Positions 23,262-41,068 of a stretch of 64,000 bases of DNA are shown here, one piece after another. The DNA comes from Dolomedes plantarius (lineage: Eukaryota > Arthropoda > Arachnida > Araneae > Dolomedidae), in the NCBI GenBank assembly GCA_907164885.2, contig OU015496.1:180698754-180762753 (forward strand), in the 5' to 3' direction. Positions within the stretch are counted from its first letter, which is position 1. Every line of letters begins with the position of its first letter. Below the pieces are notes generated by a model. That model was not told the DNA's origin, made no database searches, and saw only the letters and a program-made list of their open reading frames with translations. The position numbers and the translations under genes were made by a program.

Positions 23262-24509
23262 TTGTCTTTTAAAATGAAGTTAAATGATATTGATGAAATT
23301 AGCAATGCACTGAGGAATACGAAATCTACGAAAATAAAACTGTTACATAAATTCATTTTTGGTTCTGATGGTGACCAGAAAAATAGAGATAGGGTTAGAA
23401 GTTTTACTGGTTTTGAATTTAAATCAAATGATCCAAAATTTAAATCGAAATTAAAATCTATAGAAGTAGCACTTTCGATTAACGAACTAATCAGTATTTG
23501 CGACATTTTGAAAGTTCCATTTGATGGGGACAAAAGCGAAATATCCGGAAGAATATTAACATTGTTATGTGATATTTCTTTGCTTGCTTAAAATATCAAG
23601 GACACTGAACTGTCAGAATCAGAAAACGAAATAGAAAGTGTTAATGAAGTTCAAGGAAATGATTCATCAGTGCAATGCGAAAGTGTTAATGAGGTTCAAA
23701 GAAATGATTCGTCGATGCAATGCGAAAGTAATAATGAAGTTCAAATGCCTGTTAAGAACTGTGTTAAAAATGTATTTGAAAACAAAACTCAATCTCTCCC
23801 AGTTAACTTTTCTGATATCGGAAGTGTTATTCCACCATTTTGTGCTGACTCGCACGAAAATGTTTTAGTGTGGGTAGAACAGTTTGAAAACGTTGCTCAG
23901 TTGTTTAATTTGTCTAATATTCAGAAGTTTATTTTTGCTAAGCGATAACTTGGTGGGAATGCCCTACTGTTTGTTAAAAGTGAAAGAGATGTCATGACGT
24001 GGGAAAAATTGAAACAAGTGCTGATAGATGAGTTTACTGTTGATATCAACTCAGCCAACTTGCATGAAATGTTAAGTAAGCGAAAAATTAAAGAATCTGA
24101 ATCTGTACAGGAATATTATTTTAAAATGAGAGAACTGAGTAATCAGGGTAAAATTGAAGACACGGCATTAATCCAATATGTTATAAGAGGTATAAATGAT
24201 AAACAGGAAAATAAACTAGTTTTATATGGATGTAAAAAATTCTACGAACTTAAAGAAAAACTGAAAATATATGAAATGATAAAAAATGACTCTCATAGAA
24301 ACAAAAATACTTTTGACGGGGTGAAACCTAAACATAAAAACTATGGTAATTCAAAACAAAATTTTGACAGTTCTGTTTCTCGTAACTTTAAGGTGTGCTA
24401 TAATTGTGGAGGTAGAAACCCTTTATCTAAATTTTGTATGCATAAAAACAACGGTCCGAAATGTTTTCGATGCTTATCTTTTGGACACAAGGCATCTGAG
24501 TGCCCCTAG
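23262..24509 (+). pseudogene. gag with DEK-like head (el3)
   Basis: One reading frame broken by stops at 23589-23591 and 23946-23948. Residues 1-109 form a domain with LLHKFIF, then FTGFEF, then LISICDILKVPFDGDKSEI, which resembles the DNA-binding pseudo-SAP/SAP region of the chromatin protein DEK. A Ser/Glu/Asn-rich linker follows, with a repeated ~14-codon unit (SVNEVQ..DSS..CE). Then come a capsid-like region and two zinc knuckles (CYNCGGRNPLSKFCMHK, CFRCLSFGHKASEC). The first knuckle deviates from the usual CX2CX4HX4C spacing. The start at 23262 keeps the DEK-like domain whole, and a second Met (23274) aligns better with the starts of el1 and el2. The stops make it non-functional. Confidence 0.75.
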
Positions 24510-25304
24510 ACCAGACCCAAATCCAAAACCAAGGGCAGATAATGTATCATCTCTTAATGTTAACGTTCATCCTAATTTGAATAAAATTGTGAAAACTGGA
24601 AACTTAAGTTTTAACTCAATCGGAAGTCAAGTTACTCTATTACGTAAAGTAATTTTTGATCCACTAAATAATAACCAGTTAAGACCATCATATTTAACTT
24701 GACAGGATTAGGTAAATGCAATATCAGACCCTTAGGTTATTTTACAAGTGAAATCGAAACTGATAATTTCAAATGCAGTACAAATATTTGCGTGGTTGAA
24801 AACGGCACAATGAATCATGATATAATCGTAGGACTTGATGTGCTTATGCAGGGTGAAACAGTTATAAGCGAAAACGGAATCATAATTCGAGATAAAAATC
24901 AGAGTGAAGAAGTTAACTCCTTCACAATTTTACCAGTAGATTTAACTTTTGGTGATATCGAACTTGATATTGCGCATGATATTCCTGAATTCTATAAAGA
25001 TGAAGTAAGCGAGATAGTTTTGAACTATAAGCCTATAAAAACGAAAACAACTAATGTAGAAATGAATATTCTCGTGAAGGATAAAGAGCCAATTTATCAT
25101 CGACCTCGTCGTTTACCATTCACTGAAAGGAAAACTGTTGAAACTCAGGTGGCTGAATGGATGGAGCATGGCATAGTCGAACCATGCTCTTCTGAGTATT
25201 CAAGTCCGATCGTATTAGTTAAGAAAAAAGATGGCACCCCTCGTGTATGCATCGATTACCGGAAATTAAATAAAATTATTGATAATACACAATTTATGAA
25301 TTAG
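24510..25304 (+). pseudogene. protease and N-terminal RT fragment (el3)
   Basis: After a frameshift just past gag, a retropepsin-like stretch reads FNSIGSQVTLLRK. The catalytic D-S/T-G triad has become S-I-G, so the protease would be dead. A second frame (24699-25304) continues with IIVGLDVL, the protease second half. Then comes the reverse-transcriptase finger region: RRLPF, VEPCSSEYSSPIVLVKKKDG and RVCIDYRKLNK, classic for Ty3/Gypsy. The frame then ends, and the YxDD core is missing. Confidence 0.8.
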
Positions 25305-25871
25305 AAGCTGTCGCTATTATAGAGGCTTTAAAAAAGTTTAGAATTTATTTGCAATGGATAAAAAAGAGTTGTCTACACGTGTTGCTCTTTGGGCTTTACT
25401 ACTACAGGAATTTGATTACGCTATTGAACATCGACCCGGAAGTGAAATGACTCATGTTGACGCCCTAAATAGATGCCCAATAAACACACTTTGCATTACT
25501 ATTGAAAATATCTTACCCAAACTTAGGTTACCTCAGGAAGAAGACAGTGTAACTAAAACAATTAAAAAACTATTGAAGGTTTCGAACTATGATAATTATT
25601 TTATGCGCAACGAAATTTTGTATAGGTTTATCGACGGTAAAGAGTTAATTGTTGTTCCCGAAAATATGCAAACTGAAATCATCAGAAATGCTCACGAAAA
25701 GGAACATATGGGAATTAAACATACTGAGAAACACTTAGAAGACAGGTATTTTATTCCAAAACTTAAATCAAAAATCGAGAAACTAATAGCTAATTGTGTA
25801 CATTGTATTTTAGTAAATCGTAAATGAGCCAAACAAGAGGGTTTTCTTCACCCCATTCATAAAGATGACTT
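25290..25871 (+). pseudogene. RNase H end and integrase zinc-binding fragment (el3)
   Basis: A short frame (YELEAVAIIEAL, from about 25292) is the RNase H region. It follows the reverse-transcriptase start directly, which defines an internal deletion near 25288. The frame 25354-25827 gives the RNase H/integrase linker (IEHRPGSEMTHVDALNRCP) and an HHCC-type integrase N-terminus (HEKEHMGIKHTEKHL ... NCVHC). The catalytic D,D-35-E core is absent, because sequence jumps from the zinc-binding domain to the LTR at about 25872. Confidence 0.75.
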
Positions 25872-28640: not shown

Positions 28641-29027
28641 CAACCAAGGTTTCTTATTCATTGACAGATGTGTCTAACAGTAGCAGTTATATGAATCAAT
28701 GTAAACGAAAAATGCCCACTCTTCACGAAGCACAATTTTAATCGATATCGTCCTCAAGGAAAATATCTTTTAAATGTACGGGGTAATCTGAACATAACCT
28801 TTTTTGGAAAAAATTCCCCCCTTCCTACAGTCTTTTCAGGTTATCTGATGCACATCGCTCGGTTTACATTCTGTAGATGTATACATCTAGGGTATTATTT
28901 TTAAAAATATAAAGTTTTGTAGCCTTTTTTTCCTCTTAGTAGAAAATTCTTTTTATGCAGCATTCAAATTTTAAAAAATTGAGCTATTCAAAGTAGCGAT
29001 TTTAGTGTGAGTTCATTCGATTATATA

Positions 29028-29909
29028 TACCGGGTGGTTATAATTAAACTTCCCCTATAAACGGCATCCTACAGCGCAAACGGGTGAACGGAATGCAACG
29101 AAATTTTGTATATGGGCTATACACGAGATGCGCTCACGGAATTTCGAAAAAAAAATTAGTTCCAAAATGTCCACCAGAGGGCGCTTTTTCGGGAAAAACA
29201 TTAAATTTAACACAATAAACGACCAAAACTTAAGTAAAGGTAAGGGAGAAACAAAAACAGTACAGTTTAAAGAAACAAGAACACATTAGGACGAAATTGC
29301 ACAACAGGAGCAGTTGTTAATCGTGTCCAGGACGATGTAGGGAAAGCGGACGATCGTACTGAGCGAGCTGGGGTATCGTGGAGGTGTTGCGACGTTGAAT
29401 GACTTAAAGAACTCCATAACGCTCCATGTGCAAAGCCTCACAACTGATCAGTTACGATCTGCTGTTGAACACACTGTCCATCGACTTGAAATTTTGCAGG
29501 TGAATGAAGGTGGTCACGTGGAGCAGCTTTCCCTACATCGTCCTGGACACGATTAACAACTGCTCCTCTTGTGCAATTTCGTCCTAATCTGTTCTTGTTT
29601 CTGCAAACTGAACTATTTTTGTTTCTCTCTTACCTTTACTTAATGTGGTTCGATGACAAGGTGATCAGAAACCAGTCAATAAATGTTAATATTGTTTCTG
29701 TATTCCGTTTTGGTCGTTTATTGTGTTAAATTTCATGTTTTTCCCGAAAAGGCGCCCTCTGGTGGACATTTTGGAACTAATTTTTTTTTTCGAAATTCTG
29801 TGAGCGCATCTCGTGTATAGCCCATATACAAAATTTCGTTGCATTCCGTTCACCCGTTTGCGCTGTAGGATGCCGTTTATAGGGGAAGTTAAATTATAAC
29901 CACCCGGTA
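29028..29909. mobile_element. fold-back DNA element
   Basis: Long inverted arms: about 29028-29225 pairs with about 29710-29909, and 29276-29345 pairs with 29525-29600, both nearly perfect. Ends are taccgggtggttataattaa and the inverse. Only about 180 bp in the centre is unpaired, and that part codes for the tail of a transposase (29341-29556). Superfamily not assigned with certainty. Confidence 0.75.
29341..29556 (+). pseudogene. mariner/IS630-type transposase C-terminal relic
   Basis: A 71-codon open stretch includes LNDLKNSITLHVQSLTTDQL and, further on, VEHTVHRLEILQVNEGGHVE. The pattern DLK-x-SI...T-x-x-x-L-R-x-x-V-E-x-x-x-x-R...GGH-x-E is the C-terminus seen in a widespread arthropod transposase group. 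No catalytic domain remains. Confidence 0.5.
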
Positions 29910-30965
29910 TATGCATGTATCATACATTTTTGTAAACATCCCTCCTATTTAAAAACATCAAGCCTATTTCAAGCTCTTTTTTTCTTTACTAATAAGGAAT
30001 TTTTTATTGTAAGCATTCATAGGATATGCGCATTATTAAGTTGTTTTCGCGCTATAATGGAATTGTTTCATTTCCTTCAATTTCAGTTTGAAAACTGATC
30101 AGTGTTTCTTCCTTTGTATGCAGAATGCAATATTTGAAAAGGGAGTAATATATTTAATTAAGGAAAATGATTTAAAGATGAGTAGCTTCAACGATTTTGA
30201 TGATAATTAATGGTGGAATTTGGTGTACAAATCATCAAGGTCGTCCAGGTCCCGCAGCCCTTTCTTTAATAAGAAAACGCTTAAAAGGGATAGTTTACGA
30301 GAGGGCCTTCTCAGAATAACACAGGCCTCGGGGTCTAAGAAACATGAAGCGTGATCTCTCGTTCAGAATCTTGTCTTATGCACTTTTTTTTGTTTGTTCA
30401 GGGACTAGATCTTATCTATAGAGGCTGTTAAATGATCTAAATTGCCTTCGCTCTTCAACCTGGGATGGCCGAATGGCTAGGGTGCTGACATTCGGCCCAG
30501 AGCCTTTGAGTTAAAATCCCTCTATCGGGATGGATGTTTGTGGCCGTTCGGTATCAGCTTTAAACTATAGGTCCCGGTTTAATTACACTGTACAACAAAT
30601 TTGAATTTTTTCTGTCCTTTAGATGAAACTATGTGATTCTGTATAAACAAAAGGTGCTTGATTCATATATCAAAACCAAAATGGTCCATCGCGTACCGTA
30701 TTTGTAGGAGACCCACTTCTCATATTTACACAAATTGGTTACAGAGAAATGTAACAGAGGCTTGATTATAGAAAACACAAACACTAAAATTATTTTTTTA
30801 GCCGTTGCCTCTTTTAGACATCTGTTAGTGTCAGCACCATACGCAGAAATTTTCAAAGGGGGGGGGGTTACTATGAAAGAGTAGTTTTGAGCAATCGGTT
30901 CAAAGCTTAAACGTAATTAAATAATATATGTAATCAGAACCAATGGGGGGGGGAGTCAACCCCCA
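29910..30965. other. no gene; one tRNA-like fragment
   Basis: Apart from a tRNA-like fragment at 30470-30545, I see only unremarkable sequence and G-runs near 30860 and 30945. Confidence 0.45.
30470..30545 (+). repeat. tRNA-like (SINE) fragment
   Basis: Begins gggatggccgaatggctagg, an A-box resembling tRNA-Ser/Leu, but the B-box position reads gagttaaaatccc, well off consensus. Probably a degraded SINE head and not a tRNA gene. Confidence 0.4.
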
Positions 30966-31565: not shown

Positions 31566-32520
31566 TATGTGAATCACATACAATAGTCGCTTCATTGCTA
31601 ACATTTTTCGAAATTCATTAATAAATTGAATTTTAATCTGATGAAAGTCACTGCTAATGGAGAAATTCATTTACCTGCTACACAACGAAATAGTTTAATG
31701 GTAAACAGAGAGTGCAGAACATATTTTTAAAACAAGGAATATTTTTCAGAAGAGAAGGGGGTTGCTCTATTGTACAGGTATGCACTTAGTACATTTAACT
31801 GTAATGAGATGCATATAACTTTCATCCCTTGAGTAGGTCTATAAAATGAGGACCAAGTATGCTTGGGAACTAAACTCTGGGGGTTCCACGTCAGTTCTGA
31901 CCACCTGACTGAGACATATACTGTATGGCACCCCAAGCCCACGGTGAAGAAAGCGGAGATGGGTATCGCCGCCCTTGGTCCACTGCGGACTATTGCGCCA
32001 TGAGTTTCATTTTTTAGAGATGCATATAATAGGTTCCCTGTAATTTTTTGAGCATATAGTGTAAATGCGTATTTTCACACAAGTACGTCCGTTAAGAAAA
32101 CATCCTCCTTCGAAGCAGTACATTTCCCCCTGTAAAATCATTGAATCAGCTTCACCTTATTTTCAGTTTAAAAAACATGAATGTGTTAAAATAATTTAAA
32201 AGTAACGCAGTAGTTATTTTTTTAGATTTTTTTTTTTACATGCACAACCAATTAAACACTTTTTCAATATCTTAATATTTGAAGTGAAAAACTAGTAGGC
32301 TAAGGTAACTCCAGATTTATCAACATAGGAATGTGCCAAATTTTCGTATATTAATTATGCCTTCCGTCAAGGAAATCGAATCCTTAAGTGACACATGCAT
32401 AGAAGATCTGAAATGTGCGCTTTGTGGGATTAAACTCATGTAAACAGCATTTTCACTTCTACTTATATTTCTACGGAATATTCCTATCTTTATGCATTTA
32501 TATCATCTTATGTATTCATT

Positions 32521-32545
<25 letters not shown>
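31566..32545. other. no recognisable feature
   Basis: Contains a (TA)n tract at about 32523-32546 directly before el1. A GC-richer block at 31890-32000 could be a SINE on the minus strand, but I could not define its boxes. Confidence 0.4.
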
Positions 32546-32551
<6 letters not shown>

Positions 32552-33377
32552 TTGGTGTCCGTCGTTCTAAATTGAACATATCGGTTCACACTAACACCAA
32601 TTTTATTCTTGACGAGTCACAGGACAAAAACAGTTACAATTAACATTTATGGAACATGATTTTACTTCTTTACGGTAGCCATTTGCTACCACGTATATCT
32701 TAACGTCTTAGGCCCGTTGCACACACAGCGTTTTTATCTCTAGCGGAAATTTTCTATCGGACGTCGTTCCAACAGTAGACCACAGAAGTCAATTGGAGCT
32801 TGCACACACAGCGGAAAATGAAATTTTTCTTCGACGGTAGCCTGTGCAGCTGTCGAGTGCCACTGTGTGCCGGCGGATACGTTGACGCCAGATTGAAGTA
32901 GTTATCCATGTGACCCTATGCACGCTTACACACACAGCGGACTCTACCGTCGTAGGGTCTTTTGCGAGGGTGTGGTTGGGGGTTTGCTGGGGGGGGAGGC
33001 GCGCTGGTTTTCTTGGAATCGTAAAGGGGATTCGAAAAGGAGGGCTCCTCCGATCCCGGCTGGGGGGAGGGGGGCGTTGATGCGACCCCTCTGGTTTCTT
33101 GGACACGTGCAGGATTCCAAAAGGAGGGGTGGGCCTTTTCCCCGGCGACGGAGGTTTTCGCCGTGTGTGTAAGCTCTACTTTTAGAACGACGTCCGATGG
33201 AAAATCTCCGCCTACGCCGTGTGTGCAACGGGCCTTACTCTCCCAGCAGCTTTTTCCTCTCTGTCTAGTCGTGCTTTCCCCGTAGAATGGCGGGGATCTT
33301 CGTTCGGCGGGAATGTCTCTGATTCGTCTCGGGTGCTGTGGATGCTGTTGCCACAGTTCTCAATAACACATATCACA
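32546..33377 (-). repeat. el1 3' LTR, interrupted by MITE
   Basis: Plus-strand borders are TGTAAATTGG and ATATCACA. Without the 524-bp MITE and its duplicated TTA it is 305 bp, the same as the 5' LTR. Outside it lies a (TA)n tract, so no target duplication can be read. Confidence 0.9.
32711..33234. mobile_element. Harbinger-type MITE in the el1 LTR
   Basis: Ends ggcccgttgcacacacagcg and the inverse (gtgtgtgcaacgggcc) are flanked by TTA at 32708-32710 and 33235-33237. The matching uninterrupted site (aacgtcTTActctcc) survives in the other el1 LTR near 36900, direct proof of insertion. The interior is GC-rich with long G-runs that could form quadruplexes. The open frames crossing it on both strands are not genes. 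Confidence 0.9.
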
Positions 33378-33690: not shown

Positions 33691-34563
33691 CTAGGTGTTT
33701 GGCCAACTTTTGAGTTGATCAGCGGCTGTAGATGTCAAGTTGGGACCATCGTGCAGACCAACTTTTCGGATGTCATATCGGTCATGTGGTCGAACTTTTA
33801 TGATTTCGTAAGGACCAAAGAATTTGGGGCGCAATTTGAGCCCAGACCCAAATTGGGTACGTTGAATTGCTTCTTGATAGGTAGTTGCTTGTTTTCGACG
33901 TTCGTTATACTGTCGCTTGTTCTGCTCTTGTAGTTTCAAAATGTTGTTTTTTACGTCGTTGCGAAGATGATTTGTTGCGTGAAATGTCATGTTGATAAAC
34001 TCATCTTCTAGGTCAGAAACCTGCTTTATCAAAGCTAGTCGTTTTTCGTCATTTTGTTCATCTCGAGCTGGCAAGTCTTTTTCTAATTGAGTCTTTAGGT
34101 CTTGCATATTCACTTCTAAACGTAATTTGGAATCGTCAGTTAACTGTAAGTCGTCTTCAAGTTCGTGAATTTGGTTGTCTAATTCGATGTTAAGATCTTC
34201 AAACATTGATTGTAATTTATTCTTTGATTTATCCAGTTTTTCATGAACCATTTGTAATTCCTCTAATTTGTGGTGCAGTATATCAATATCTTTCGACATC
34301 GTCCTCTTTTGTTCTTCTAACAGAGCAGAAGCATCTGCTTCCTCTTCAGCTTTCTTTTTATATTCTGCAATCTGGATTTCGGTAATAGCTAACTTTTTCT
34401 CAACTTTTTTCCTTGCTTCTACTTCTTCAAATACTTGCTCTTGTAAACTCTCACGTTCACGTTCAAGATTGTGCTTAGTCTTCTCTAAAGCAACTTTAGC
34501 TTTTTGCACTGAATCTAACTGTTCATTGAATTTTTCAGTGGCAATTGTATGTTTCTGCTTCAA
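33691..34563 (-). CDS. myosin-rod / integrase-tail fusion frame (el1)
   Basis: 290 codons, not a normal pol product. Residues 1-188 are an alpha-helical coiled coil that reads as non-muscle myosin II heavy-chain rod: MKQKHT at the start, [20 protein letters not shown] in the middle, and [20 protein letters not shown] with [10 protein letters not shown] near residues 144-175. From about residue 189 the sequence switches to Ty3/Gypsy integrase C-terminus: [20 protein letters not shown], then [14 protein letters not shown] (the GPY/F module), ending [11 protein letters not shown]. There are no stops inside. It overlaps the preceding frame by four bases. An 8-bp tandem duplication (34595-34610) separates the two halves of the myosin insert. 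Start is arbitrary: the frame originally continued from upstream. Confidence 0.8.
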
Positions 34564-36107
34564 ATTACGAATCTGGTTTTGGTGTGCAGCAGTTTCATCT
34601 TCTCATCTTCTATGTTTCTCTTTAAAATATTGAGTTCTTCCTCCATTTTAGTTCGCAAAGCTTGTTGTGTACCTGTTGAATCCATATAATCAATAAGTTT
34701 ATTCCTCAAACATTCTAACTCCTCATTTAAGTTTCTTTTCTGCATTTCAGACATTGCTAAAACTTCTTTTAAGTGAATCAGTTCAGATTCAAAAGCTTTT
34801 TGTTTCTTTTCAGCTTCTTTCGCTTGAGCATTCAGTTCATCTTTAACTAATCGTGATTCTTCCACTTCTCGCTGAAAATCTTTCAACTCACTCTGCAATT
34901 TTTTGAGTTGGTGGGTTTGGTCAGTAATCATTGTAGCTTCGCTACCTGAATCGTGAAGCTCATGAAGATCAACATTGTTTATCATTATTGGATAACACCT
35001 ATAATTGGTTGGTGTAGAAACATGTAAGGCGTCATTAGGTGGAGTAGTGTCCGAAGAATTTTCTGAAATTGTCTGTCCAACGCGTTGGGAGCAAGTTGAG
35101 GATAAATGTCCAAAAGAATTGCACGTAAAACATTTTGGAGTCGTATGCTGACAACTGGAGCTTTTGTGGCCCTTGGAACCACAATTATAGCAAACGGGGG
35201 GTTTTGGAGAATTATTAGAGAGTTTTCTGTCGAAGGTGTAATTTCGTTGACGATTATCATATGTGAATTTAATATCCTTAGAAGGTTTACTTAATTTGGA
35301 CGTTGAAAGAAATTTCTGATAAACTGTCAATTTTTCTTTGAATTCTGAAACAGATTTAGCACCATATAACAAAATTTTATTAGATGTAGAATCGGGAATA
35401 CCGTTGATAACATAATTAAAAATTGAAGAAATGTCAATTTGACCTCTTGAACCGATTTCTCGCATAGCTATGAAGTAGTCGTGTAAGGATTCATTAGGTT
35501 GTAACCGTCTTTGCAGCAACATCGTATGAAGATCGGCGCTATTTAATTTGGAGGAAAATTCTTCTAGTAAGTTTCCTTTGAACGAATTCCAAGTGGTTAT
35601 GCCATGAAGAGAATTAATAAATATTTTTGCGGAACTAACTAAACATTTTTTCGCAAAGACAATTTTGTGGACATCATTTGTGATGCCATTAAGATCAAAA
35701 AGTTCTTCTAAATCCTGTATGAAAATTTTAACGCTGTAAGAATCGGATGAACCGTTAAAATTCTTAATGCACTCTGCAAGGTCTCGTAACGATAAATGTG
35801 TTCCACTGTTTGTAACTGGAAAACGCTGCGAATCAACATCACATAAAAAAGGATTTATCTGTCTGTGCTCGAAAGAGTTGTTTATGTTAGAATGTGAAGC
35901 TGCGGTTGGAAATGAACTTTGAACCGGCACCTGGCTAGTCGCCAAAACCGTAGAGCTTCTGTTGGCGTCGTGTGAATCATTTTCGGTTTCACTCGTATCC
36001 GAGAGCACAGGGGGGGGGGAATAATGCAAAGTTATGTAAAGCATTGAAAATAGTTTCACAGCTCTGAGCTGGGTCTGTTGAACAATCAAGATGTAGCAAA
36101 TTCGCAA
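34560..36107 (-). CDS. gag - protease start - myosin-rod fusion frame (el1)
   Basis: 515 codons. Residues 30-105 are a Ser/Thr/Asp-rich linker. Residues 105-265 are a capsid-like region ([36 protein letters not shown]). Two CCHC zinc knuckles lie at residues 306-319 and 326-339 ([28 protein letters not shown]). The protease opens with an intact D-S-G at 386-388 but is cut about ten residues later. From residue 399 the sequence is myosin-heavy-chain rod ([20 protein letters not shown] ... [17 protein letters not shown]), continuing with [20 protein letters not shown] until an 8-bp duplication shifts the frame. The first ~29 codons are out-of-frame read-in: a C-run at 36010-36018 has split this frame from the DEK-like head. 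Confidence 0.85.
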
Positions 36108-36342
36108 TACAAATTAAATCGGTGCTGGAAAATGTTTTAAGTCTTTTATCTCGTTCGTCATTGACATGAAAAGTTTTAGGAAAACCAGAAAAAATGCGGA
36201 GTTCTTTACGGTTGTCTCTCCCAGCATCATTTTCAAATATAAACTGATGTAATAATCTAATTGCTTTTGTGGACCCTGATTTAAGGGCTTTTGAAATATG
36301 TGGAATATCATTTAGAGTACTCATATTGAAAGTAAACAGCAT
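35989..36342 (-). CDS. DEK-like N-terminal part of gag (el1)
   Basis: 117 codons; an internal Met at position 7 (MSTLND) aligns with the starts in el2 and el3. Key blocks are LLHQFIF, IFSGFP and [12 protein letters not shown], the same order as in el3 and el2 and resembling the DNA-binding pseudo-SAP/SAP region of DEK. The frame breaks in a G/C-run (36010-36018), so head and capsid were probably one protein with an acidic linker. Position and orientation fit the first product after the 5' leader. Confidence 0.65.
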   Translation of the reverse strand: MLFTFNMSTLNDIPHISKALKSGSTKAIRLLHQFIFENDAGRDNRKELRIFSGFPKTFHVNDERDKRLKTFSSTDLICIANLLHLDCSTDPAQSCETIFNALHNFALFPPPCALGYE

Positions 36343-36742: not shown

Positions 36743-37043
36743 TGTAAATTGGTGTCCGTCATTCTAAATTGAACACATCGGTTCACATTAACACCAGTTT
36801 TATTCTTGACGAGTCACAGGACAAAAACAGTTACAATTAACATTTATGGAACATGATTTTACTTCTTTACGGTAGCCATTTGCTACCACGTATATCTTAA
36901 CGTCTTACTCTCCCGGCAGCTTTTTCCTCTCTGTCTAGTCGTGCGTTCCCCGTAGAATGGCGGGGATCTTCGTTCGGCGGGAATGTCTCTGATTCGTCTC
37001 GGGTGCTGTGGATGCTGTTGCCACAGTTCTCAATAACACATAT

Positions 37044-37047
<4 letters not shown>
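36743..37047 (-). repeat. el1 5' LTR
   Basis: 305 bp, TG...CA borders, uninterrupted. It gives the empty site for the MITE in the 3' LTR. It runs directly into (CA)n-(TA)n at 37048. Confidence 0.9.
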
Positions 37048-38622: not shown

Positions 38623-41068
38623 CATTTTTTTCTTTATTTTTTATTGTTTCATTTTAAATCTCCTCATGCACCACAAGGTATAACATGAGGCTTACAGAAG
38701 TAAGTGAAAAACACAAAACAAGAAAAATTAAAAATTTAAATTACAAACAAAATTTCGCAAGACAGCAAGACTTTCAACACTCTTAACGAGATCAGAAAGA
38801 ACAGGAGGCCAACAAAGGGACAGACGTCTCAAGTCCGCCATTAATATAGCTCGGGCACTCACATGTAATTTGCAGTGAAAAAGAAAATGTTCAACATCTT
38901 CATCAGCATCACCGCAAGTACAAAGTCTACTGGTCACCAAATTAAAACGAAGCAAATAGCTCTTAAAATTTTCATGACCAGTTAAAACTTGAGTTAAGTT
39001 AAAGTCAGTTGAAAAGTGCTTACACTTTAAACGCTGAAAAATAGTTGGAAAAAATCTTTTTGTCCACAATGCCTTAGACGAAGCAAGAAATTCAGTATTC
39101 CAGTCCAAGACAGTTTTTTCCCTAGCGACACAATTCCAGTGAGACTCCGGGACAGACATCACTAAATCTATTTCATGAAAAGTCGCTTCTTTCACCAACT
39201 GGTCCGCTCTTTCATTGCCAAGATTACCACTATGGCCCCGAATATAAGAAAAATGAATCTCAACAACATTTTTCACGATCGTGCAAAATTGAGTGAATTT
39301 CTACTACAAGCTTTTCTGTAGAAGCCGTATTACGCAAAAGAAAGAGGGAAGGAAGAGAATCTGAGCAAATAAGATATTTAAGTGTTCCACTCTCACGGAA
39401 AGAATCCTGAATCCATTTTACAACCAGGTTTAAGGATAAAAGTTCGGCCTGGAAAACAGAACATTCATCAAGTAATCGATACTGGGCTGTAACCTTCTCT
39501 ATTCCATCTTCATAAATCACAAAAGCAAGACCAATCCTTCCATCTAGCTTACTACCATCCGTGAAACATATAGTTTTATACTCCTGAAAAACATCCTCTG
39601 CATAGTTAATAACTATAATAGATTTCCTACTCGCAGGGTGCGGCAAACAAGAAATAGGAAGCTTCCCATCCAGGGTGTTACAAACGTTGTCTTTTATATG
39701 GCCCCTCTTAACCTCAAGATTATTTAAGATAATTAAATCAATAGGTGGAAGAGCAGAAATAACAAAGACTGCATTATAACTAACGGTCCTATAACCCTGA
39801 ATAATACGAAGGAGAAATCTTCTTTGAATTCTTCTAAGAAGTCTACTATTTATTTTCTTTCTCAAGGAGTGTCCCCAAGCTCCTGAAGCATACGAGATCA
39901 GTGGTACAATACCCTAATTATATATCAATTTAAGAACATCAGTTTTAACCCCATAAGTGTTTTTTGCAATTCGCAATAAACCAAGAAGAATTTTTTCACT
40001 TTTACTGGAGACATAAGAAATATGCTTCTTCCACCGCAGTTTATTATCAACAATAACTCCCAAATACCTTATCTGCTGTACTTCTTCAATAGGTTCACTC
40101 CCAAGAGTTAAATGAATTCCATGAGCCGGCCTCGCTTTTTTATGTATCATCATAACTTTAGATTTCGAAGAATTAAACCCCAACTTATAAAGATCCGACC
40201 ATTCAAAAATGTAATCCAGAATATTTTGAGATATAACACAGGCATCATCAAAGTTTTTACACTGAACAATAAGCAATAAATCGTCTGCAAAAGCAATTTT
40301 ATAACTATTTTGGAATTTTGAGATATTGCAGAGTAAGTCATTCTTAATAATGTTCCAAACAAAAGGTCCCGTAACGGACCCTTGAGGACAGCCTTTTTCT
40401 AAAACAATTTTTTTGTGATATTTCCCAATGTAAGATCTGCTGAGCCACCCTGCAAGAAACTCTTTATTAGGTAAAAACATTCTTAGGAACTTTAAGACAT
40501 CTAAGCAAGTGCAGAATACCAGGCCACCATGCATTATCGAAAGCCCCCTTAATATCCAAGAAAATAAGAAAGGTCACATAATACTTACGTTTTCCTTGTT
40601 TAACAATATCGCATAGGCGGATCAAAGCATCCTCAGCTGACCTTTGAGGAGTAAATCCATATTGATCCTCACTCAAGAGGCTGGATCGTCGTAGATGGTA
40701 GCTAAGTCTATTTAGGCAGAATTTTTCAAGACACTTACCCAAACAAGGAAGTAAGCTGATGCATCGAATATTATCAATATTTGTCCTCGATAGCTCAGTA
40801 CTTTTAGGAATAAGTACACCTTTTGCTCTCTTCCAGGTCTTCGGAAAAACACCAAGATTTAAACAAGCATTAAACAAGGCCATCAGCACAGAAGGACAAC
40901 TACCATGAAAATTCTTAATTAATTCATTTGTTATTCTATCGTATCCTGGAGCCCTGTTTAAACTTAAATTTTCCACTACACAATCAACTTCCGCCCTAGA
41001 GAAAGGAACATCATCATTGACGTCATACACCAATTCAGCTTCGTCACGCAAAAACCTATGACTAGAAC
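38623..41068 (-). mobile_element. 5'-truncated LINE with RT and RNase H
   Basis: 2446 bp bounded by a 13-bp target duplication. Its minus-strand 3' end is A-rich (38623-38650). It lacks the endonuclease, so it is 5'-truncated. Inserted into the gag capsid region of el2. The order reverse transcriptase, RNase H, CCHC-like cluster places it in the I-type group of LINEs (I, R1, Ingi-like); I cannot choose between them. Confidence 0.85.
38728..41051 (-). pseudogene. LINE ORF2 relic: reverse transcriptase - RNase H - zinc cluster
   Basis: Four adjoining frames. 41051-40467 has the reverse-transcriptase start: APGYDRITNELIK, VFPKTWKRAKGVLIPK and GFTPQRSAEDALIRL. 40534-39914 has GCPQGSVTGPFVWNI and the catalytic FADDLLLI. 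39865-39260 has the RNase H opening, FTDGSKLDGRIGLAFVIYED. 39276-38728 has the RNase H end (HFSYIRGHSGNLGNERADQL) and a Cys/His cluster (CTCGDADEDVEHFLFHC). Frame changes between these blocks make it inactive, yet each block is well preserved, so the insertion is not very old. Catalytic Asp pairs are still visible. Confidence 0.85.

Follow-up and report, generated by a model that had tools for sequence, protein, structure and literature searches.

The window, a stretch of 64,000 nucleotides from the spider Dolomedes plantarius, carries on its minus strand an LTR element of ~4 kb in which gag is followed by a protease stub, ~304 codons of myosin rod and the C-terminal (GPY/F) end of an integrase (Table 1). 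Both LTRs recognised in the first-pass annotation are present, with the TG...CA ends expected of a Ty3/Gypsy pair; the 3' copy is split by a 523-bp insert, presumably MITE-like, and no env was noticed between the LTRs. Pfam matches the CCHC knuckle in the gag frame and, barely above its cut-off (29.3 vs 29.1 bits), the Ty3_capsid family, and relatives of this gag are found at 32-40% identity. The integrase end retains the GPY/F C-terminus and, over 90 residues, shows 62% identity to a Ty3/Gypsy polyprotein of Trichonephila clavipes. Most of pol has been replaced, as had been proposed: the protease stub joins the myosin directly, the gap in pol opens just past the active-site-like motif and closes shortly before the integrase ends, and in the two frames of the window copy Pfam finds no reverse transcriptase (RT), RNase H or integrase core family. 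Because the RT-RNase H-integrase part of pol is absent, the element is non-autonomous.

The coordinates, order and identity first given for this chimera agree with the Pfam and PDB matches and with the recurrence of its junctions elsewhere in the genome. The layout of gag, protease, a coiled coil of ~300 codons and integrase also stands, with the refinement that the window copy has two frameshifts, one in gag (at a C run near 36010-36020) and the other within the rod.

Table 1. Features of the chimeric element in the window copy
Feature	Position	Strand	Basis or remark
5' LTR	36743..37047	-	direct repeats and sequence by eye; ~305 bp, TGTGATATG...TTTACA
gag (capsid, CCHC knuckle)	35050..36324	-	Ty3_capsid and zf-CCHC matches
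gag end and protease start (active-site-like DSG motif), then truncated	34914..35049	-	sequence by eye, comparison with relatives
Myosin rod, whole, ~304 codons	34913-34000	-	
Myosin segment S1 (NMII exons F/G; the gene's most 3' piece, here first)	34746..34913	-	
Myosin segment S2 (exons a/A/B)	34456..34745	-	frame broken once inside, window copy
Myosin segment S3 (exons C/D/D2)	34171..34455	-	
Myosin segment S4 (exons E/F)	34000..34170	-	
Integrase C-terminal end, to stop; contains KFFGPY	33691..33999	-	
3' LTR, split by 523-bp insert	32546..33377	-	direct repeats and sequence by eye
523-bp insert inside 3' LTR; inverted ends GGCCCGTTGCACAC and TAA duplication	32711..33233	.	by eye

Other repeats lie nearby in the window. 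A second broken Ty3/Gypsy element (23994-25827, plus strand) has a gag ~41% identical to that of the chimera and 53% identical to a Centruroides protein. Three nested inverted-repeat pairs, with arms of 83-131 nt that are 94-98% complementary, occupy 29025-29912, and broken ORFs resembling those of a non-LTR retrotransposon lie at 38728-41051 on the minus strand (RNase H match just below the cut-off, RT-like ORFs by eye).

Donor gene and spliced origin of the rod

Both frames of the window copy match the Pfam family Myosin_tail_1 (E 8e-38 and 6e-23), and in the PDB the rod matches myosin-10, -11 and -9, which belong to the non-muscle/smooth class of myosin II. The rod is a fragment, consisting of four rod segments with neither a motor head nor a continuous rod. 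The first-pass annotation assigned it to the heavy chain of non-muscle myosin II (NMII), which holds and can be refined: the segments run S1-S2-S3-S4 in the element vs S2-S3-S4-S1 in the gene, and the rod is also internally deleted. At least two genes for NMII are present in the host assembly (2.78 Gb in 390 contigs): NMII-A lies on C2 near 11.13 Mb and NMII-B on C7 near 169.9 Mb. Over the 238 codons of S2-S4, 32 copies of the element are on average 76.5% identical to NMII-B (range 73-82%; window copy 78.5%), the codon alignment is gap-free, and dS and dN are 0.41 and 0.121; identity over a 71-residue exon is 80%. NMII-A is more distant, with 48-67% identity depending on the segment and overall saturation at synonymous sites; it was considered as the donor and was superseded by NMII-B once the paralogue search had been run. 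The comparison with NMII-B covers S2-S4, exon G (which would hold most of S1) lying outside the NMII-B stretch used, and S1 is placed by NMII-A. The origin of the rod is non-muscle myosin II, and NMII-B is the closest host gene.

Six exon junctions of the host gene are crossed without introns, namely a/A and A/B in S2, C/D and D/D2 in S3, E/F in S4 and F/G in S1; two of them (a/A, F/G) were seen in NMII-A alone and the remaining four in NMII-A and NMII-B alike, and the host borders at all six show AG and GT. Because these junctions are crossed, the rod derives from a spliced mRNA. Capture as cDNA, as originally suggested, is supported by the same intronless crossings together with the mean identity to an intron-bearing host gene.

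The internal joins were compared by eye, without a chance control. At the S2/S3 join 7 of 8 donor bases match and at the S3/S4 join all 6, and the similarity at S1/S2, which was compared with NMII-A only, is not clear. A variant copy, L048, has the same S2/S3 join as the main family, a deletion of its own at 7/7 matching bases (again by eye and without a chance control) and its own integrase join, further upstream. The simplest reading that fits both L048 and the main family is a longer common capture that was trimmed separately. The heptad phase carries over from S1 into S2, where it changes once; at each of the other two joins it is displaced by four, a shift that coiled coils tolerate.

Copies, age and insertion sites

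The question of whether the chimera had multiplied can be answered: it has spread. The gag/myosin and myosin/integrase junctions are found at 265 and 197 places, respectively, and the reversed-pattern controls at 0; these counts allow up to 3 mismatches in 26 bases and miss more diverged copies. Querying the genome with the chimeric stretch produced 336 candidates, and the 40 that were scored are all 92-100% identical to it, 39 of them beginning within 3 bases of the start of the query. Among the sampled copies are some with LTR pairs of their own and unlike flanking sequence, and the junction places are spread over many contigs. The protease stub by itself is found at 261 places, in agreement with the 265 gag/myosin junctions (totals compared, not matched place by place), and these totals do not point to any sizeable sibling family with pol and the same gag; nor was a parent found that combines this gag with pol. 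Models of myosin-like proteins predicted from such copies could pass for an expansion of the gene family in annotation.

Some copies keep long frames. One of the 20 other copies fetched, L018, is open from stop to stop over 864 codons, leading out of gag and into an integrase end that is itself truncated; in L017 the open stretch measures 776 codons, from inside gag through KFFGPY, and in L029 737, from gag into the rod. Placed on the columns of L018, the 21 copies have 0-3 in-frame stops each. A frame of 1,896 codons with the chimera proved to be only a run of N and was discarded; N letters are also present in L022, L041 and L043. Of the 21 copies, 14 yielded LTR pairs, and the 13 usable ones (that of L027 was dropped as a microsatellite match) diverge by 0.014-0.060, the window pair being measured over 165 bases only. 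As dS to the donor is 0.41 against this LTR divergence, the capture looks, on sequence comparison, several times older than the sampled insertions.

In all 13 copies with LTR pairs, including the window copy (32500-32545), the 3' flank starts in (CA)n or (TA)n, with L023 showing a short run only, which suggests TA/CA microsatellites as the insertion target of the family. This can be likened to the TATA targets of 17.6/297 elements. An LTR search of the genome gave 637 first-look candidates, of which 40 were scored. The LTRs of L013-L032 are 74-94% identical to the window LTR, compared with 92-97% for gag and rod, and several LTR subfamilies seem to share one common interior.

Tests of constraint on gag, rod and integrase end

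The rod may be a passenger, in which case the family would owe its spread to an intact gag, the LTRs and the ends that a helper needs, with the rod having merely kept the frame uninterrupted. Polymorphism among copies is in line with this. Across 21 copies, singleton changes appear neutral whether they fall in gag, in the rod or in the integrase end. Among shared changes, gag is constrained (52 silent, 51 replacement, omega ~0.44, p 2.4e-5; wrong frames 1.55 and 2.46), the rod gives omega ~0.81 (22 silent, 45 replacement, p 0.24) and the integrase end ~0.42 (5 silent, 8 replacement, p 0.11). In the set of 32 copies, omega for the rod is 1.04 for changes found in two copies and 0.84 (p 0.34) for those found in three or more. 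Because one wrong frame is lower than the true frame (0.68 with 21 copies, 0.63 with 32), the recent-copy test holds no signal for the rod, and no significant constraint on it is detected in recent copies. These tests leave out sites at which more than two letters occur or too few copies are represented; L011 (no match) and L042 (split match) were removed before the 32-row set was formed. A first among-copy dN/dS (myosin 0.61) was misleading because neutral decay was pooled in, and was set aside for the split into singleton and shared changes with wrong-frame controls. The internal deletions, which are unlike between the main family and L048, also speak for a passenger.

Comparison with the donor points the other way. 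The dN/dS between rod and NMII-B is 0.30 (bootstrap 0.19-0.46) vs 0.78 and 1.19 in the wrong frames, a low value of which part falls on the host branch; neutrality has p 0.01 if the element branch is no shorter than the host branch (i.e. carries at least half of the silent change). Heptad core positions are more often identical to the donor than other positions in three of three segments (S2 0.86/0.75, S3 0.76/0.70, S4 0.97/0.74), the hydrophobic class being better kept at the core only in S4 (0.99/0.89, vs 0.92/0.95 in S2 and 0.95/0.95 in S3), and the rod frame of L018 is still open at dS ~0.4 from the donor. Taken together, a mere passenger is a serious reading that falls somewhat short of an even chance. 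Our reading is that the rod was somewhat constrained for much of its time in the element, possibly just to remain open and coiled. How far a captured cellular sequence is used by an element rather than carried becomes a testable question, as does the way in which elements lacking pol go on multiplying.

Proposed capture by template switching and related systems

The reading preferred here, at a probability of about 85%, is that a Ty3/Gypsy element captured a spliced NMII-B message by template switching and that the shuffled chimera then spread non-autonomously through the enzymes of pol-bearing relatives. A template switch during reverse transcription would have copied the message into the element, the rod replacing pol from the protease up to where the integrase core ends, and additional switches or slips at short similar stretches would have removed parts of the rod and shifted its last segment to the front. 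The product would retain its LTRs and a single frame through gag, rod and GPY/F end, and would be incapable of its own reverse transcription. As to the segment order, minus-strand synthesis running from integrase towards gag would have left S1 still uncopied on the message when it hit the 5' limit of S2, and a jump back onto the same message could then have set S1 ahead of S2. A back-spliced circular RNA was also considered as the source of this order and was rejected because, by NMII-A, the limits fall off exon borders, S1 ending inside exon G and S2 starting inside exon a.

Having no RT, the element needs help, which pol-bearing relatives would supply. A possible helper is a very abundant Ty3/Gypsy family of the same genome whose integrase is related to that of the chimera; all 122 scored matches to the T. 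clavipes integrase P0003, of 21,861 candidates, are at 81-83%, many of them within frames of ~1,400 codons. One guess is that the rod lets the Gag fusion self-associate and that the GPY/F end, a multimerisation module, co-assembles with the helper integrase.

Alternatively, a LINE may have made the myosin cDNA first, as a processed pseudogene, with joining to the LTR element following later at the DNA level. The broken non-LTR retrotransposon in the window would suit this route, but the two outer joins of four copies show neither added poly-A nor a pseudogene flank, and the segment order and the similarity at the joins fit switching by a reverse transcriptase, which makes it improbable. An assembly artefact, or the single nested insertion of a processed pseudogene, has nothing in its favour beyond the window alone and a negligible chance, given the missing poly-A, the separate LTR pairs and unlike flanks of other copies, and junctions recurring at 265 and 197 places on many contigs, which rule out the artefact. 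Equally negligible is an origin in a retroelement-specific coiled-coil family merely resembling myosin: coiled coils are alike in composition, and coiled-coil ORFs of other retroelements are described (PMC5408684), but a family of this kind with myosin no closer, named at the outset as the outcome that would count against the chimera, was looked for and did not appear, and the gap-free alignment with NMII-B, the 80% identity of the 71-residue exon and the intronless crossing of host exon borders rule it out.

Template-switch capture of NMII-B would have precedents. In transducing retroviruses, host cDNA is fused to gag, pol is deleted and dependence on a helper is presumed. The comparison of the chimera with them is fair as to layout, with host cDNA in frame with gag, pol gone and a helper presumed, but does not amount to membership, as the chimera is a genomic retrotransposon in which no env was noticed and which is known here from sequence alone. 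Capture of mRNA by LTR elements is already on record for plants and animals (PMC8232201, PMC13317346, PMC5408686). LTR-mediated retroposition in metazoans brings intronless host mRNA into LTR cDNA through switches at short similarities, several of which are possible, and the mRNA is often partial (PMC5408686, PMC8232201); what these accounts describe are gene retrocopies, whereas the chimera is a high-copy family with an in-frame gag-myosin-GPY/F protein. In maize, Bs1 is an LTR element with transduced cellular gene segments that form a hybrid reading frame (PMC13317346, PMC5408686). Bs1 belongs to a plant and has three other donor genes, whereas the donor of the chimera is one animal cytoskeletal gene. 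Unlike in Bs1, the insert of the chimera lies between the protease stub and the GPY/F end; its junctions are found at 197-265 places. A literature search limited to titles and abstract openings returned no report of myosin inside an LTR element. The chimera differs from known captures in its many copies, in an in-frame gag-myosin-GPY/F protein and in having its donor gene in the same assembly. An animal genome here displays the capture of a host mRNA by an LTR element next to the donor gene and its paralogue, with switch-like scars, a separately trimmed sibling variant and hundreds of descendants.

A partial parallel exists in T. clavipes, where gene models P0016, P0030 and others have the arrangement gag-protease-insert-GPY/F. 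They resemble the chimera in a related gag (~36% identity), the GPY/F end and the missing intervening pol, but have a longer protease and, in place of pol, ~170 residues of other sequence that is not myosin. All or part of this insert is matched by 29 protein models (query included), at least 17 of which run, as judged by eye, into the GPY/F end. Its heptad pattern is not significant (p 0.097), and own-genome, PDB and Pfam searches yielded no usable donor; an origin from CLIP1 was considered because of a motif and dropped. Beyond these models, the protein P0009 combines gag and protease with an integrase zinc domain and a GPY/F-like end, but has no RT. Judging by all of these, loss of pol with retention of GPY/F seems to recur in the lineage, and recurrent capture from hosts could be part of it. 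A bolder proposal, which we regard as rather unlikely, is that this gag lineage replaced pol more than once with foreign coiled-coil-like sequence while keeping GPY/F, and that Gag-coil-GPY/F is a working structural protein by which an element lacking pol assembles with the integrase of its abundant pol-bearing relatives and draws on it. If so, a host cytoskeletal rod would have been recruited as an assembly part of the parasite. The N-terminus of the T. clavipes gag shows a further feature: residues 9-90 of P0016 match the protein DEK (2jx3, E 8.5e-4), as if a DEK-like domain headed gag, and positions 36000-36324 of the window look similar to these residues, the DEK match itself coming from P0016.
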